Source of the DNA: Terriglobus roseus
GTDB lineage: Bacteria > Acidobacteriota > Terriglobia > Terriglobales > Acidobacteriaceae
Reading direction: 5' to 3'
Length of the DNA: 64,000 nt
Assembly: GCF_900102185.1 (NCBI RefSeq)
Contig: NZ_LT629690.1
Span: forward strand, 2,232,001-2,296,000
The position numbers were made by a program, and so were the translations under genes. The notes beneath the pieces were generated by a model, which worked only from the letters and a program-made list of their open reading frames with translations, was not told the origin of the DNA and ran no database searches. This document shows, piece after piece, positions 36,292-43,457 of the stretch (positions are counted from its first letter, which is position 1; every line of letters starts with the position of its first letter).

Positions 36292-37089
36292 ATGAATCGA
36301 CAGCTACAGCCTGCCCTTACCGCCTTTGCCCTGGGACTCATCGGTCTTGGGGTTCTCGCCCTCATTTACGGTGACTTTGCGCTCGTCTGGCAGCCAGTAC
36401 CAATGTCGTTGCCGAGCAGGTCTGCCTTCGCTTACGGCTCGGGTCTGTTGATGCTCTTTGGCGGCATCGGCTTGCTGTTCCGAGTCTCCTCGACGTGGTC
36501 TGCTCGCATCCTCTTCCCTTACCTTTTCCTTTGGATGCTTCTCAAAGTACCCGCTCTCCTCGTGGCTCCAAAGCTGGAAGCCGTATGGTTGGGTTTCGGT
36601 GAGATCGCTGTTCTCTTTGCGGCGGGATGGATTGTCTTTGCCACGTTCGCCGAGGTCAGCTCTGCTTCAATTCTTTCTTTCCTCTCGGGTGAAAAAGGCA
36701 CCCGCATGGCGGCCATACTTTTCGGTATCTCTTTGATCCCGATTGGACTTTCGCACATCTTCTATACCAAACAAACCGTCGACCTTATTCCAACGTGGAT
36801 TCCATCTAGAACCGCGTTGGCCTATCTCACGGGTGTAGGACAGATCATCTGCGGTGCAGCGGTTCTGTTTTCTATCGTTCCATGCGTTGCCGCAGCGGTT
36901 GAGGCTGGGATGGTAAGCCTGTTTGCGATGTTCGTTTGGCTTCCTGCAATCCTCGCCTCACCTAAGACCAGGCTTCCATGGACCGCGTTCTTCATTACCT
37001 GGTTCTTTGCCTCGAGCGCCTGGGTGGTATCGCGCGGAATATCTTCTGATGTGGAAGCAAACAATATCGGCAAGAACAAGCGACGTTAG
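36292..37089 (+). CDS. Membrane protein with two DoxX-like halves
   Basis: A 265-residue integral membrane protein with about eight hydrophobic segments. The two halves look like copies of one unit: LIGLGVLALIYGDFALVWQPVP with SAFAYGSGLLMLFGGIGLLF, and GISLIPIGLSHIFYTKQTVDLIP with TALAYLTGVGQIICGAAVLF. This is the DoxX-like four-helix pattern, here duplicated in tandem. The function is not known. GAGGA lies 5 bases before the ATG. It stands alone between the broken regulator gene and the RND operon. Confidence 0.75.
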   Translation: MNRQLQPALTAFALGLIGLGVLALIYGDFALVWQPVPMSLPSRSAFAYGSGLLMLFGGIGLLFRVSSTWSARILFPYLFLWMLLKVPALLVAPKLEAVWLGFGEIAVLFAAGWIVFATFAEVSSASILSFLSGEKGTRMAAILFGISLIPIGLSHIFYTKQTVDLIPTWIPSRTALAYLTGVGQIICGAAVLFSIVPCVAAAVEAGMVSLFAMFVWLPAILASPKTRLPWTAFFITWFFASSAWVVSRGISSDVEANNIGKNKRR

Positions 37090-37215: not shown

Positions 37216-38658
37216 TTATTTCCATCCGCCACCAAGCGCCGCATAGAGATTCACGAGCGAACCAGCTTCTTGCGCCTCTGCTTGCGCCAGCTTCAACTGC
37301 GCATCGTATAGATCCGTGTCTGTCGTAAGTACCTCAAGATAGCTCGTGTTTCCGCCCGAATAGCGAAGCCGCGCAAGACGAACAGCATCGGACGCGGAGA
37401 TAACAACCTGATGCTGCTCTTCACGGCGATTCTGTGTCTCTCGATACGTCACGAGTGAGTTGGATACGTCTTTGAATGCATTGAGAATGGCCTTCTGGTA
37501 GCTTGCCAACATCTCCTGCTGTTGCGCTTGAGAGTACTTGTAGTTACTCGTAATTCGTCCACCCGCAAATATCGGCTGTGTAAGAGAACCGGCGGCGTAC
37601 CAGTACGCATTCTTCCCCTCGAAGATGCTCTGCAACTGATTGCTGGCGGAACCTCCCATACTTGTGAGCGATATCTGTGGGAAGAATTGAGCCTTCGCGA
37701 CACCCACGCGAGCATTAGCCGCAATCAACTCTGCTTCAGCTTTGAGAATGTCTGGCCGACGCTCCAATAGTTCGGACGGCAACCCCGCAGGAACTGATTC
37801 AGGATGCGGTTGTTCCGTAACGGTCAGTCCCCTCTGAACGCCATCGGGATTATGCCCCAGCAGAACACTAATAGCATTCTCCTGAATCGCGATCTGACGC
37901 CGAATCTCCGGCAGGTTCGCCTGTGCTGTATGCAGAAGCTCCTCTGCCTGTCGAGTATCTGCACGCGACCCCGCACCGTATTGCTCCAACGACTGAGTTA
38001 GATGAAGCGAGTCTTCTCTTGCTTTGATCGTGTTCTGCGTAATCTCTAGCTGCGAATCGAGACTGCGCAATTGGAAGTACGCCGTCGCAAGCTCTTCGAT
38101 CAAAGATGCGCGCGTTGCCCGCTGAGCCCATTCCGTTTGCAATAGCTCCGCTCGTGCGGCTTCGGTCTGACGACGATAGAGTCCCCAGAAGTCAAGATTC
38201 CATGCAGCCGAGGCGCTGAATCCGCCTCCTCGAATGAAATCGTTCGAGGTGCCGTCTGCATTCTTGTTTGCAAGTCCTGCCGGCAATTGAAGAGCACTGA
38301 AACTTCCACCCGCACCGACAGTGGGCAGTTGCTGCGAGCGGATAATGCTTACCTGAGCTTGTGCTTCAAGAATGCGTTGAGCAGCAATCTTCAAGTCAAG
38401 ATTGTTCTTCAGTGCTTCATCTACAAGGCTCTGCAACACTGGATCCATAAAGATCGTGCGCCAGTCCTGCTCTGCGATAGATGCTTCATTTGCGATGGCA
38501 GGCGCCAACGCTCCACGATATGCCTGCGGCGTGGTCACGGCTGGACGCGCGTAGTTCGGTCCCACCTTGCAACCGACAATAAGCAGTACAAGAATGGCTG
38601 CGGCGGCAGCCCGCCCTGCACGATGAAGCAATTGATTAGAATCAGCGGACTTCCACAT
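37216..38658 (-). CDS. RND efflux outer-membrane lipoprotein (NodT/OprM family)
   Basis: A 480-residue outer-membrane factor. The signal peptide ends in a lipobox (LIVGC), so it is a lipoprotein as in OprM and NodT. The two repeated outer-membrane-efflux domains are clear (LQSLVDEALKNNLDLKIAAQRI and LERRPDILKAEAELIAANARVGVAKAQFFPQISL). The ATG at 38658 follows GAGGGAC at 7 bases and overlaps the end of the adaptor gene by 17 bases. It is the last gene of the pump-adaptor-channel operon. Since the pump gene has an internal stop, this channel may now serve another transporter or be unused. Confidence 0.9.
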   Translation of the reverse strand: MWKSADSNQLLHRAGRAAAAAILVLLIVGCKVGPNYARPAVTTPQAYRGALAPAIANEASIAEQDWRTIFMDPVLQSLVDEALKNNLDLKIAAQRILEAQAQVSIIRSQQLPTVGAGGSFSALQLPAGLANKNADGTSNDFIRGGGFSASAAWNLDFWGLYRRQTEAARAELLQTEWAQRATRASLIEELATAYFQLRSLDSQLEITQNTIKAREDSLHLTQSLEQYGAGSRADTRQAEELLHTAQANLPEIRRQIAIQENAISVLLGHNPDGVQRGLTVTEQPHPESVPAGLPSELLERRPDILKAEAELIAANARVGVAKAQFFPQISLTSMGGSASNQLQSIFEGKNAYWYAAGSLTQPIFAGGRITSNYKYSQAQQQEMLASYQKAILNAFKDVSNSLVTYRETQNRREEQHQVVISASDAVRLARLRYSGGNTSYLEVLTTDTDLYDAQLKLAQAEAQEAGSLVNLYAALGGGWK

Positions 38659-39892
38659 GTTGTCCCTCACTGAGTACGTCGCTCGGACTGGCAACGAGCG
38701 ATTCCTCACCATTCAAGCCAGCGAGCACTTCAATCTCTTTACCCATGTCTTTACCAATCGTTACTGGAATGAAATGGAGATTGTGTTGCGAATTGACCGT
38801 AACAACGTGCATGCCAGCGCCATCTACTACCAGCGAGCTGGTAGGAATCACCAACGATGCATGCTGCTGCGAGAGCGTGAAATGAACCTGCGCATACATG
38901 CCCGGCAGCAGCGATGCATCACTATTTGCCACCTGCACTTCAGTGCGCATCGTTCTCGCGGCGTCATTCAAAGCGGACGCATTACGAGTCACAGTTCCGC
39001 TATAACTGCGTCCGAGACGTTCACTTACCTGGATGACCGCATTCTGCCCGTCGCGAATGTTGACCGCTTCTGACTGCGGCACGTCGACATAAACACGCAG
39101 TGTGTCACTCTGCGCAATGCTAAAGAGTGGCTTCCCACCTGTAGGTGCAGCCGCACTTACAAGGTCACCACGCTCGATATTGCGTTGCGTGATCACACCA
39201 TCGAATGGTGCAACGATATGTTCGAAGCCCTGCATCTGCTGCAAACGAGCCACATTTGCTTGATTTGCAACAACCGCAGCTTCAGCCGCTGCGATGTTTG
39301 CATTTGCAGCCGCCACATCTGCCACGCGAGCATTGTGCGTCTGCACAGCGGAATCAACAATCTGTTGCGAGATGGCGTGCTGCTCACCAAGAGGCAGGTC
39401 GCGTTCTTTCGTGATGCGCGCCAGTTCTGCATTTGCTTTTGCCTGCTCAAGTCCAGCACGCGACTGCAGCAAGGCAGCCTGCGATTGAGCAAGTGTTGCC
39501 TTCGCCTGGCTCAGTTGCTGATCGATCTCCGGGGAGGAAATGACAGCAAGAACCTGCCCTGCGCTCACCTTTGTTCCAATGTCTACATTGCGACGGTCCA
39601 CGTAGCCATCCACGCGAGCAAACAGATTCGCCGTATAGAGAGGCTCAACGTTGCCAGGCAGGATGAGTTGTGAAGTGGGCTCACCCTTCTGTGCGTGGAT
39701 GACTGTGACAACGGGATGCGTCACCGGAGCATCATTGGTTGCAGCAAGTGCCTCGCGATAGCTTGTAATGCGCGGCACGGCTCCAACAGCAACCAGAGCG
39801 ATTGCAATAACTGTTCCGAGTCCTACTGCCTTTACGCGGCTTCCCTTTTTGGTTTGAACGCGGTCGCGGGTCGGGTTTTCCATGGTGATCAT
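38642..39892 (-). CDS. RND periplasmic adaptor (MdtA/AcrA-like membrane fusion protein)
   Basis: A 416-residue membrane fusion protein. It has a single N-terminal hydrophobic anchor (VKAVGLGTVIAIALVAVGAV), a lipoyl-like half (PGNVEPLYTANLFARVDGYVDRRNVDIGTKVSAGQVL), an alpha-helical hairpin rich in Ala and Gln (about 115-210), the second lipoyl half (IVAPFDGVITQRNIERGDLV), a beta barrel and a membrane-proximal domain. The start overlaps the pump gene stop as ATGA, with AGGAGG 4 bases upstream, so it is coupled to translation through the pump gene. The internal stop in the pump gene may therefore also lower its expression. Confidence 0.9.
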   Translation of the reverse strand: MITMENPTRDRVQTKKGSRVKAVGLGTVIAIALVAVGAVPRITSYREALAATNDAPVTHPVVTVIHAQKGEPTSQLILPGNVEPLYTANLFARVDGYVDRRNVDIGTKVSAGQVLAVISSPEIDQQLSQAKATLAQSQAALLQSRAGLEQAKANAELARITKERDLPLGEQHAISQQIVDSAVQTHNARVADVAAANANIAAAEAAVVANQANVARLQQMQGFEHIVAPFDGVITQRNIERGDLVSAAAPTGGKPLFSIAQSDTLRVYVDVPQSEAVNIRDGQNAVIQVSERLGRSYSGTVTRNASALNDAARTMRTEVQVANSDASLLPGMYAQVHFTLSQQHASLVIPTSSLVVDGAGMHVVTVNSQHNLHFIPVTIGKDMGKEIEVLAGLNGEESLVASPSDVLSEGQHVEVR

Positions 39893-42800
39893 GCGGCCTC
39901 CTGAGTTGTGTTTCTTCCGTGAATCAACGTGAACATCAAAGGAACAAAGAATAGAGTTGCGAAGGTTGCCATGCTGAGTCCGCCGATAACAGCGCGAGCC
40001 AACGGAGCATTCTGCTCGCCGCCTTCGCCAATACCCAGCGCCATCGGCAACATACCGATGATCATGGCGAAAGCCGTCATAATGATTGGCCTCAGACGCG
40101 TGAATCCTGCTGTTACAGCAGCCCGCAGCGGTGACTCACCATTGGCTCGCAGTTCGTTTGCAAACGTAACGAGCAGGATCGAGTTCGCAGTTGCAACGCC
40201 GATCGACATAATGGCACCCATCAGAGATGGCACATTGAAGGTCGTCTGGGTGAGGAAGAGTGCCCACACGATACCGCAGAATGCACCCGGTAAAGCGCAG
40301 ATGATGATGAACGGATCGCGCTAGCTCTGGTAGTTCACAACCATCAACAGATACACCAGCAGCGCTGCAAACGTGAGGCCGATACCAAGACGTGTGAACG
40401 CCTCGTTCATGCTCTCTACCTGGCCGCGAACCACAATCTTAGTTCCCGGCGGCAGGTTGTCACTCGCTTGCTTCACAATGCGATTGACCTTCGCAGCCAC
40501 AGAGCCAAGGTCGCTGTTCTGCGTATTCGCGTAGATGTCATAGACTGGTGCGCCATTGTGGTGATTGATGACGACAGGCATGATGGCTGGACGAAGCGTC
40601 GCCATGTTGCCCAACACTTCCGTCCGATTCGCTATCGTATGCATCGGGATCGGCGTATTTTGCAGGGCGTTGATGGAGTCAATGCTGTACTGCGGTGTCT
40701 GTGCAGCGACCGTATAGGTAATGCCCATCTTCGGATCCAGCCAGAAGTTAGGCTGAACCGCAGCACTTGAGCTCAGCGAAACATACAGGCTATTCGCCAC
40801 GTCCTGCTGCGTAAGCCCAAACTGTGCAGCGCGAACACGATCAATATCCAGATGAAGATCCGGCGCATCCACCACTTGGTGCATGTGCACGTCAACAGCA
40901 CCGGGTACAGTTGCCAGTTGCTCACGCAGATGCTTTGCAATGGCGTAGTTCGACGGATCGTATCCCTGCACCTGGATATCAATTGGCGCTGGCAGACCAA
41001 AGTTAAGGATCTGCGTCACCATGTCCGCAGGCTGGAAGAAGAACGTTTCATCGGGGAACTTCTTTGGAAGCTCTGCGCGAAGTTGCTTAATGTAACCCTG
41101 CGTTGAGTGATGCTTTTCATTCAACGCGATCAGGACTTCGCCATCGGCGCTGCTGATCGTAGACCCATCGCCGAACGCATAGTTAAACGTCTCCGGTGTG
41201 AGTCCGATGTTATCCATCACCAACTCTGTCTCGTCGGCAGGAATGGTTTTGCGGATCTCCTCTTCCACCTGGCTGAAGATGACCTTGGTCTTCTCAATTC
41301 GTGTGCCAGGACGTGTGCGGATATGCAGTTTGATCTGTCCCGCGTCGACGCTTGGGAAGAAGTCCCGACCGATGAATGGCAGCAATACGAAGGCGGAAAG
41401 CATCACCGCTACCGATGCAAAGAGTGCCTTCCGACGATGAGCCAGGAATGCTTCCAGTGCCGTTGTGTAGCGATTCTGCAGGCGCTCATAGCCACGATTA
41501 AAGAGTTCGTTGATGCGGCGGAAGAACGATGGTGCACCTGCATTTTCAACAACCTCTGAATGTCCTTCAAAGCTGTGTTCCGCACCGAGTAGAAAGTTCA
41601 CTAGAACTGGCACCAGCGTGCGAGAAAGCACATAGGAAGCCAGCATGGCAAAGACGACCGCGAGCGCCATAGGAGTAAACAGAAACTTCGCAGGACCTGT
41701 AAGGAAGACGACAGAAACAAACACAATGCAAATCGTGAGAGTTGAGACGAGCGTGGGAGTGGCAATCTCGGATGCACCGATAAGAACCGCATCACGAAGC
41801 GATTGCCCGTGCATGTGCCGGTGAATGTTTTCAATGGTTACCGTCGCATCATCAACCAGGATGCCAATCGCCAGTGCAAGACCACCGAGAGTCATCGTGT
41901 TCATGGTTTCCCCAAGCGCACTGAGGACAATGATGGAACTTAGAATCGATAGCGGAATCGAGATCGCAATAATTAACGTGCTACGCCAGCTTCCTAGAAA
42001 GAGCAGGATCATCAGCGCGGTAAGAGAAGCAGCGATCAAACCTTCGCGCAGAACTCCTACAATCGATGCCTTAACGAAGATGGACTGATCAAAGAGTTCG
42101 GTAATCTTCAATCCCTTCGGAGCCGCTGCACGTGATGCTGGCAACACATCATCTTTGATCTGCTTCACAATATCGAGGGTGGAGACCGATCCCGTCTTCA
42201 TGATCGTCAGAAGCGCAGCGGGCTTTCCGTTGGCTCTGGCAACGTTCTGTTGCACAGACCAGCCATCGCGGACATGCGCAACGTCTCGCATGTACACCAT
42301 CGCGCCGTTCACCTGCTTAATTGGGACATCGTTCAGCGATAACGCATCGACAGGGCTTGAGTTAGTGCTAACGGTGTACTCGGTGTTTTCAACCTTCGCA
42401 GTACCGGAGGGTAGAGTGACATTCTGCGCGTTGATCGCGTTCGTCACATCGATCGGCGTAAGGCCTTTTGCCAGCAAAGCATTCTGATCAAGATCGACCA
42501 TGATCTGCCGAGCAACGCCACCATAAGGCGTGGGCAGAAGTGTTCCTGGAACCTTCGTCAATTGCTGACGAACGCGGAACAAACCGTAGTCATAAATCTC
42601 TGATTCTGAAAGCGTGTCGCTTGAAAGCGATAACTGAATAATGGGCACCGTTGATGCACTAAAGCGAAGAATCCATGGTGGATTCACACCCTGCGGCATA
42701 CGGAATCGAATGGAATTCACCGCCGCGCCTACTTGTGACATGGCAGCATCAATGCGCACCTGAGGCTGGAAAGAAATCTTGATGACTGACGCACCATTTG

Positions 42801-43053
42801 TGGTCTGCGAATCAATTGACTTCACGTCATTGACCACCGCCATCACAAACTCACTGAAGGTCGTGATGCGCTGTTCCATCTCCTTAGCGGGCAAGCCAGA
42901 GTAGGACCAAATCACCGTAACTTGAGGGATATCAATGTTTGGAAAGATGTCCGTCGGAGTCGTCGCAATCGAAGAGAACCCAAGAACAAGTATGAGAATC
43001 GACGCTACAATAAACGTGTAAGGCTTATTGAGCGCAAGACGAACTATCCACAT
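39889..43053 (-). pseudogene. RND efflux pump (HAE1 family) interrupted by an in-frame TAG
   Basis: The frame codes for 1054 residues but carries TAG at 40321-40323, codon 911. Before it the protein ends VYLLMVVNYQS; after it the same frame continues RDPFIIICALPGAFCGIVWALFLTQTTFNVPSLMGAIMSIG to the natural stop at 39889. Homologues have Trp here (NFQSW.DPF), so one G-to-A change (TGG to TAG) explains it. Otherwise the protein is intact: 12 membrane helices, two periplasmic loops, and the proton-relay Asp401-Asp402 in GILVDDATVTIEN. The cut removes the last three to four helices, which are needed for function. Sequencing error, a recent null mutation, or readthrough by a suppressor tRNA are all open. 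The ATG at 43053 has GGAGA 8 bases upstream. Confidence 0.9.
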
Positions 43054-43089: not shown

Positions 43090-43115
43090 ACTACTTTGAT
43101 GTGCGTCAAAATAGT
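43090..43115. promoter_or_regulatory. Inverted repeat 1, candidate ArsR-type operator
   Basis: ACTACTTTGA (43090-43099), 6 bases, TCAAAATAGT (43106-43115): 9 of 10 positions are symmetric. It lies between the divergent RND operon and the ArsR-type gene, as ArsR-family operators usually do. Confidence 0.55.
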
Positions 43116-43119
43116 TGGA

Positions 43120-43142
43120 TTCAGGAATTCACGATTCTTGAA
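43120..43142. promoter_or_regulatory. Inverted repeat 2, candidate second operator
   Basis: TTCAGGAAT (43120-43128), 5 bases, ATTCTTGAA (43134-43142): 8 of 9 positions are symmetric. It lies 5 bases after repeat 1, closer to the regulator gene. The two half-site types differ, so they may bind different proteins. Confidence 0.45.
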
Positions 43143-43172
43143 CATTTCGCATGGTTAGCGCGTCTTATAGGT

Positions 43173-43457
43173 GTGAACGCGGTGAAAGAAAACGAAGCAA
43201 CACTGATCGCGAAGGCACTCGGAGATCCGAACCGATTTTCCATCTACAGGCAGATCGCGGAAGGTGATGAGACCTATTGCGGCGAGGTCTGCAACAAGCA
43301 CACACTCTCGCCAGGAACGGTCTCACATCACCTCAAGATCCTCACGGACCTCGGCCTCATCACATCGCGCAAAGAAGGACTGAACGTTTATTACCGTTCC
43401 ATTCCGGAAAAGTTCTCGTCCTATCTCGCCTATCTGCAGAATCTCAATCGGAAGTAA
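43173..43457 (+). CDS. ArsR-family winged-helix transcriptional regulator
   Basis: A small DNA-binding protein of about 95 residues. The winged-helix fold is plain: LIAKALGDPNRFSIYRQIAEG, then the helix-turn-helix (TLSPGTVSHHLKILTDLGLITSRKEG) and the wing ending NVYYRSIPEKF. Metal-sensing CxC in helix 3 is not present, though two cysteines (YCGEVC) lie just before the recognition helix. No in-frame ATG is near the fold; GTG at 43173 or 43182 fits the usual length. It is divergent from the RND operon and is its likely repressor, acting through the inverted repeats between them. Confidence 0.85.
   Translation: MNAVKENEATLIAKALGDPNRFSIYRQIAEGDETYCGEVCNKHTLSPGTVSHHLKILTDLGLITSRKEGLNVYYRSIPEKFSSYLAYLQNLNRK

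Follow-up and report, generated by a model that had tools for sequence, protein, structure and literature searches.

A probable recent nonsense mutation in the pump gene of an RND efflux operon from a Terriglobus-type lineage

In the window, the whole stretch of 64,000 nucleotides from a soil acidobacterium analyzed here (G000:C1:2232001-2296000), the gene for an RND efflux pump of the drug or metal type is interrupted by an in-frame TAG codon. Does this codon mark a lost gene, an error in the deposited sequence, or a position at which TAG is decoded? A sequence-only reading of the window had named all three, describing the change as recent, an artefact or read through. The locus was therefore compared with its orthologues and homologues, and the decoding machinery of the genome and the quality of its assembly were assessed.

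RESULTS

The pump frame and its neighbors

The minus-strand frame 43053..39889 (-) comprises 1055 codons, the final TGA counted, and has a single internal stop. This is a TAG at 40323..40321 (-), codon 911 of 1054; a further 143 codons separate it from the TGA. Its presence in the deposited sequence was confirmed: the genome (G000, a single contig of 4,851,966 bases, 99.98% complete) carries the identical TAG, and the window matches it letter for letter. When the frame was translated through the stop, residues 3-1045 matched Pfam ACR_tran at profile positions 1-1021 of 1021 with 711.6 bits, the full-length match expected of an RND pump. Because the profile is matched end to end, the earlier description of the gene as complete save for TAG at codon 911 holds. 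The best solved relative by sequence was MdtB (9lyq_B, 1.8e-85), and none of the 14 NCBIfam models listed for the read-through protein reached its cut-off. The features of the locus are as follows.

37216..38712, minus strand: outer-membrane channel (NodT type), intact (ORF, profiles, sisters)
38642..39892, minus strand: periplasmic adaptor (RND_mfp), intact, its ATG overlapping the pump TGA (ORF, profiles, sisters)
39889..40320, minus strand: 3' remnant of the pump frame, codons 912-1054 plus TGA, with TM9-12, conserved past the stop (branch counts, ACR_tran)
39897..39902, minus strand: AGGAGG, presumed ribosome-binding site of the adaptor, within the end of the pump frame (sequence, sister comparison)
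40321..40323, minus strand: in-frame TAG, codon 911 (translation, orthologue alignment)
40321..43053, minus strand: RND pump gene, standard-code product of 910 residues, N-terminal part to TM8 (frame, translation, hydropathy)
43182..43457, plus strand: divergent regulator of the ArsR/SmtB family, inferred start GTG 43182 (profiles, sister conservation)

Hydropathy peaks were located at residues 889-907 (TM8) and 916-934 (TM9), then at 944-962, 990-1008 and 1026-1044. The helix numbers are those which we assume from AcrB topology, as fewer than twelve helices were resolved by hydropathy itself. The stop falls between TM8 and TM9, and the product made under the standard code lacks TM9-12 of the twelve helices of such a pump. 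With its full-length frame match and its adjoining genes for an adaptor and a NodT-type channel, the locus resembles AcrB/MdtB-like ACR_tran systems of the RND type; unlike in those systems, the product ends after TM8. The 910-residue product gave no match in PADLOC, and no near match was found among plasmid records.

Both genes downstream scored above cut-off with their profiles (adaptor TIGR01730, 184 bits; channel TIGR01845, 382 bits), as expected of an RND operon. They were compared with those of the two nearest genomes, G013 (98% protein identity) and G007 (97%), which serve as sister comparators and are not strains of the window's species. Synonymous/non-synonymous changes on the branches of the window, G013 and G007 amounted to 57/13, 82/9 and 71/13 for the adaptor and 93/17, 97/20 and 84/21 for the channel. 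No stops were present and the window's branch counts were similar to those of the sisters, in agreement with the claim that both genes are intact. The further claim that they are coupled to the pump gene stood in part. The pump TGA does overlap the adaptor ATG; however, an AGGAGG that is unchanged in G013 and G007 precedes the adaptor ATG by four bases, so that the adaptor may be translated even where ribosomes do not reach the end of the pump frame.

The ArsR/SmtB-type regulator, divergent from the pump, hints at a metal or redox signal for it. The mechanically called ORF of this gene (43101-43457) is over-long, and conservation in the sisters begins near GTG 43182; a start there leaves 128 bases between regulator and pump. 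A stop in the G007 regulator gene was considered as a lesion and rejected, being an effect of the over-long ORF. At 36292-37089 of the window, a 265-residue ORF adjoins the operon. A tblastn search at 1e-10 of 400-kb stretches from G013 and G007 returned nothing for it, and gene content next to the pump operon seems to differ between the window and these stretches.

Trp at the stop position in homologues

Codon 911 was covered by 118 of 120 homologous loci (2 had no match there), a set that includes paralogues and a few contigs twice. The position is occupied by Trp in 110 loci, Phe in 4, Tyr, Ala and Val in 1 each, and a stop in 1, the window's own. The expectation of Trp from homologues was thus borne out, in 110 of the 117 other loci and in all 19 rows of a codon-by-codon alignment of near orthologues, among which two contigs occur twice. 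The motif given for it, NFQSW, is the form of three paralogues in the same genome; the orthologues read NYQSW.

None of the 118 loci besides the window's own has a stop at codon 911. Internal stops in pump genes were likewise confined to this one, both among the 14 pump matches of its own genome and among the 58 that the 19 genomes of the genus gave at E <= 1e-250. Across 250 family genomes, 150 had a match at E <= 1e-300, and among the matches listed only the window's genome had a stop.

The codon after the stop also departs from the orthologues. It encodes Arg on the window lineage, where 18 of the 19 orthologue rows have Leu and one has Ile, so that two amino-acid-changing differences lie within 4 nt. 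Arg is found at this place in 9 of the 118 loci, the window's own counted, and the second change (codon 912) is thus tolerable. A second change so close to the stop has a probability of ~0.03 under uniform placement. As a signal in its own right it was rejected, since amino-acid-changing neighbor pairs within 4 nt are common on all three branches (273 pairs among 1406 changes in G000, 818 among 3022 in G013 and 194 among 1258 in G007).

Selection before and after the stop

The orthologous frames of G013 and G007 have no stops. A frame that is broken in one genome and unbroken in its near relatives is what is expected of a recent pseudogene. Changes were assigned to branches by the odd one out among the window, G013 and G007, with three-way differences and gapped codons dropped. 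The synonymous/non-synonymous counts were 163/17 for the window (16 plus the stop), 180/16 for G007 and 170/11 for G013. With the stop left out, the non-synonymous/synonymous ratio of the window (16/163) did not differ from that of the sisters (27/350; Fisher p = 0.50). A second, pairwise alignment of codons 1-910 gave slightly different counts (G007 162/17 versus 163/14). Past the stop, the window had 3 further amino-acid changes and 19 synonymous ones, against 3/36 for the sisters together (p = 0.66), with no clear sign of decay in the sequence.

Neither relaxed selection nor further lesions in the pump frame were found in the branch counts of the window versus the two sisters, which is unsurprising if the lesion is very young. 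Family-level conservation on both sides of the stop, noted earlier from the sequence, is seen in the full-length ACR_tran match and in the lack of a raised non-synonymous ratio.

The counts also set a limit to the age of the stop. With a neutral expectation of N/S 2.57 for the pump gene, 16 or fewer changes would be observed with P = 0.041 had the gene been neutral for 3% of the branch, and with P = 0.0009 for 5%. The region past the stop alone gives a weaker bound (P = 0.031 for 15% of the branch). By these estimates, which assume that the entire gene turned neutral with the stop, the stop would have arisen in roughly the last 3% of the window branch, if it ended selection. Together with the intact orthologues in G013 and G007, this upholds the view of the change as recent and puts a bound on its age. 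A base-call error, for which the stop would have zero age, or efficient readthrough would fit the branch numbers equally well.

Distribution within the genus

An orthologue with at least 83% identity was present in 8 of the 19 genus genomes, the window's own counted; the best match in the other 11, of which four are incomplete or contaminated, had at most 58% identity. Restricting the set to completeness of 90% or more and contamination of 5% or less left 15 genomes, of which 7 had no orthologue (G003, G005, G009, G010, G014, G016 and G017). The window's genome retains three intact relatives of the pump from the same subfamily, with 51-57% identity. From this gene content the pump looks accessory. 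Its loss would be tolerated accordingly, as about half of the genus genomes are without it and three intact pumps of the same subfamily remain. Another genome of the genus, G006 (5.1 Mb), has two intact orthologous copies with 89% and 83% identity, so pump copy number appears to vary within the genus. In the accessible part of the literature on Terriglobus RND and efflux systems, no paper on this gene was found.

Accuracy of the sequence

If the TAG were a sequencing or assembly error, the living strain would have an intact pump and no mutation. Such an error predicts normal selection along the whole branch, as was observed. The frequency of comparable lesions was estimated by counting in-frame stops flanked on both sides by at least 50 aligned residues more than 70% identical. 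Some of the ORFs counted are possibly not genes, and a looser first count, which consisted mostly of over-long starts, was set aside. Against the 119 orthologue-like ORFs of G013, the window's genome showed 2 stops, and against the 142 of G007 it showed 3; both totals include the pump. For G007 the totals were 2 (230 ORFs from G013) and 4 (139 ORFs from G000), and for G013 they were 3 (227 ORFs from G007) and 0 (117 ORFs from G000). With 0 to 4 interior stops per 117-230 ORFs, one such lesion is ordinary.

Frameshift-like places numbered 1 (119 G013 ORFs) and 2 (142 G007 ORFs) in the window's genome, and one in each of the other four comparisons. The presence of three such places in 400 kb of the same assembly speaks for error. 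One of them, at about 2441744 of G000:C1, is a one-base frameshift relative to G007 in a conserved gene, with flanks 96% and 99% identical; the gene resembles an alpha/beta hydrolase by eye. It may be a recent real lesion or an assembly error.

However, an error at codon 911 must be of the substitution type, and a second lineage-specific substitution lies 3 nt away, so that either two errors or one error next to one real change would be needed. Nor did 106 genes compared with G007 and G013 reveal a general excess of amino-acid-changing differences in the window's genome: there were 0.243 per synonymous difference in G000, 0.239 in G007 and 0.367 in G013. Nonsense differences in these genes numbered 5, 0 and 4, respectively, where the 0 of G007 arises by construction because its ORFs were the reference. 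That the genome is a single contig at 99.98% completeness also argues against error. On balance we consider a sequencing or assembly error unlikely, though it is the alternative to be taken most seriously.

Decoding of TAG in the genome

The next possibility is functional readthrough, in which TAG is decoded often enough to yield a working pump at reduced level. In its favor, the region past the stop is still conserved. In addition, Belinky et al. 2021 (PMC7918605) reported, in the part of the study available to us, that in-frame stops in bacterial genes are widespread, mostly short-lived and accompanied by dN/dS < 1; they argue that many are read through frequently rather than marking pseudogenes. 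The gene described here resembles theirs in that one in-frame stop interrupts a sequence on which purifying selection otherwise acts. The large-scale part of that study, as far as available, treats stops at the same position in orthologues, whereas the Terriglobus stop occurs in one genome only. The pump stop would fit the class described in the available text of PMC7918605, with nothing new needed.

The window's genome contains 46 tRNAs at E <= 0.001 (RF00005), to each of which ARAGORN assigned an anticodon. A suppressor tRNA, the search for which the sequence-only reading had proposed as a check, was absent from this genome-wide set: none of the 46 has the anticodon CUA. A 47th tRNA-like match of 26.6 bits, below threshold, received no ARAGORN call, and its loop reads CUC by eye. 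This 97-base sequence, G000:C1:2086912-2087008 (-), lies just below the Rfam cut-off and has an over-long D-arm region. PylS reached only 25.8 bits in the window's genome (cut-off 178); in the control search, 13 of 14 control genomes gave matches and one was above cut-off. No altered or missing RF1 was found with the TIGR00019 profile: prfA is present without a stop and scores 536.9 bits (cut-off 423.25).

The tRNA-Trp gene is single and identical in G013 and G007, both of which have intact pumps. Among the 46 tRNA matches it has the lowest score (39 bits). In the alignment, five standard pairs form its anticodon stem. A stop-reading tRNA-Trp with a 4-bp anticodon stem has been described for UGA in the accessible text of PMC13092985. 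An unusual tRNA-Trp was rejected as the cause here, since a gene with a five-pair stem and identical in the sisters does not explain a stop seen only in this genome.

Usage of TAG was examined in 400 kb around the window, out of 4.85 Mb. Of 298 selected ORFs, 80 end in TAG. Where such an ORF had an orthologue, its stop lay no more than 5 codons from the sister's in 30 of 32 cases for G013 and 41 of 42 for G007. The exceptions were one ORF that extends in the sister and one end not aligned for G013, and one that extends for G007; the extending case is presumably the pump itself. No other gene with TAG read as sense was found in the 400 kb compared with G013 and G007. On the strength of the tRNAs, RF1, PylS and the use of TAG as terminator, an alternative code or amber suppressor was rejected.

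The suggestion that the stop is read through was not borne out by these results: no CUA tRNA or above-cut-off PylS is present, RF1 is intact, tRNA-Trp is that of the sisters, TAG ends genes normally, and no other listed pump match has an internal stop. Recency suffices to explain conservation past the stop. We regard functional readthrough as improbable. A related proposal, that the TAG acts as a leaky, tunable switch, with near-cognate readthrough giving a trickle of full pump while adaptor and channel are made in full, so that the pump stays in a state of low expression and can be regained by reversion, is more doubtful still. A split transporter, in which reinitiation supplies a C-terminal piece that joins the 910-residue product to form a working pump, is scarcely credible: in-frame starts do exist past the stop (GTG 40269 opens 126 residues), but the first lies 54 nt beyond it with 3 of 6 bases matching AGGAGG, its position at codon 929 inside the TM9 peak (916-934) would leave most of TM9 missing, and the matches listed in genus and family genomes are unbroken frames, this pump excepted. 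Neither readthrough nor a split pump has positive support.

DISCUSSION

The TAG at codon 911 is probably a recent inactivating nonsense mutation in a dispensable RND pump gene. We infer that the base call is right and that pump function has been lost in this strain. According to this explanation, a recent nonsense mutation in one Terriglobus-type lineage would have truncated the inner-membrane component encoded by a tripartite RND efflux operon. Ribosomes would halt at codon 911, between TM8 and TM9, and the pump subunit without TM9-TM12 would be inactive or degraded. Synthesis of adaptor and channel could continue, each from a start site of its own.

A precedent is found in nonsense-truncated MexB of Pseudomonas aeruginosa, as documented in the accessible part of PMC5238406. 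In a cystic fibrosis isolate, MexB was cut to 878 residues with loss of TM8-12, and the isolate was nearly pump-null. Its temocillin MIC was 2 mg/L, equal to that of a mexAB deletion, and its efflux was low (-0.178, compared with -0.480 for PAO1 and -0.112 for the deletion). Against a simple parallel, other isolates in which MexB is shortened even more, to 30 or 672 residues, retained a temocillin MIC of 32 mg/L, far below that of PAO1 (512) and yet higher than that of the deletion (2). In the case documented there and in the present one, the stop lies at a nearby location, the last TM helices are lost and the adaptor is intact. However, MexB is cut before TM8 and the Terriglobus pump after it; in addition, the phenotype of the MexB isolate was measured (MIC, efflux), whereas loss of the Terriglobus pump is a prediction.

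The finding calls for caution in annotation. Automated gene calling would yield a 910-residue "pump" without its last four helices, and resistance or metal tolerance predicted from gene content could be wrong for this strain. If a sense codon were real at this position, the TAG would instead mark an error in a complete genome. The locus would be of wider interest only if readthrough were true, which nothing here favors. The evidence fits an ordinary, very recent loss (or a base-call error) and not a new reading of the genetic code.
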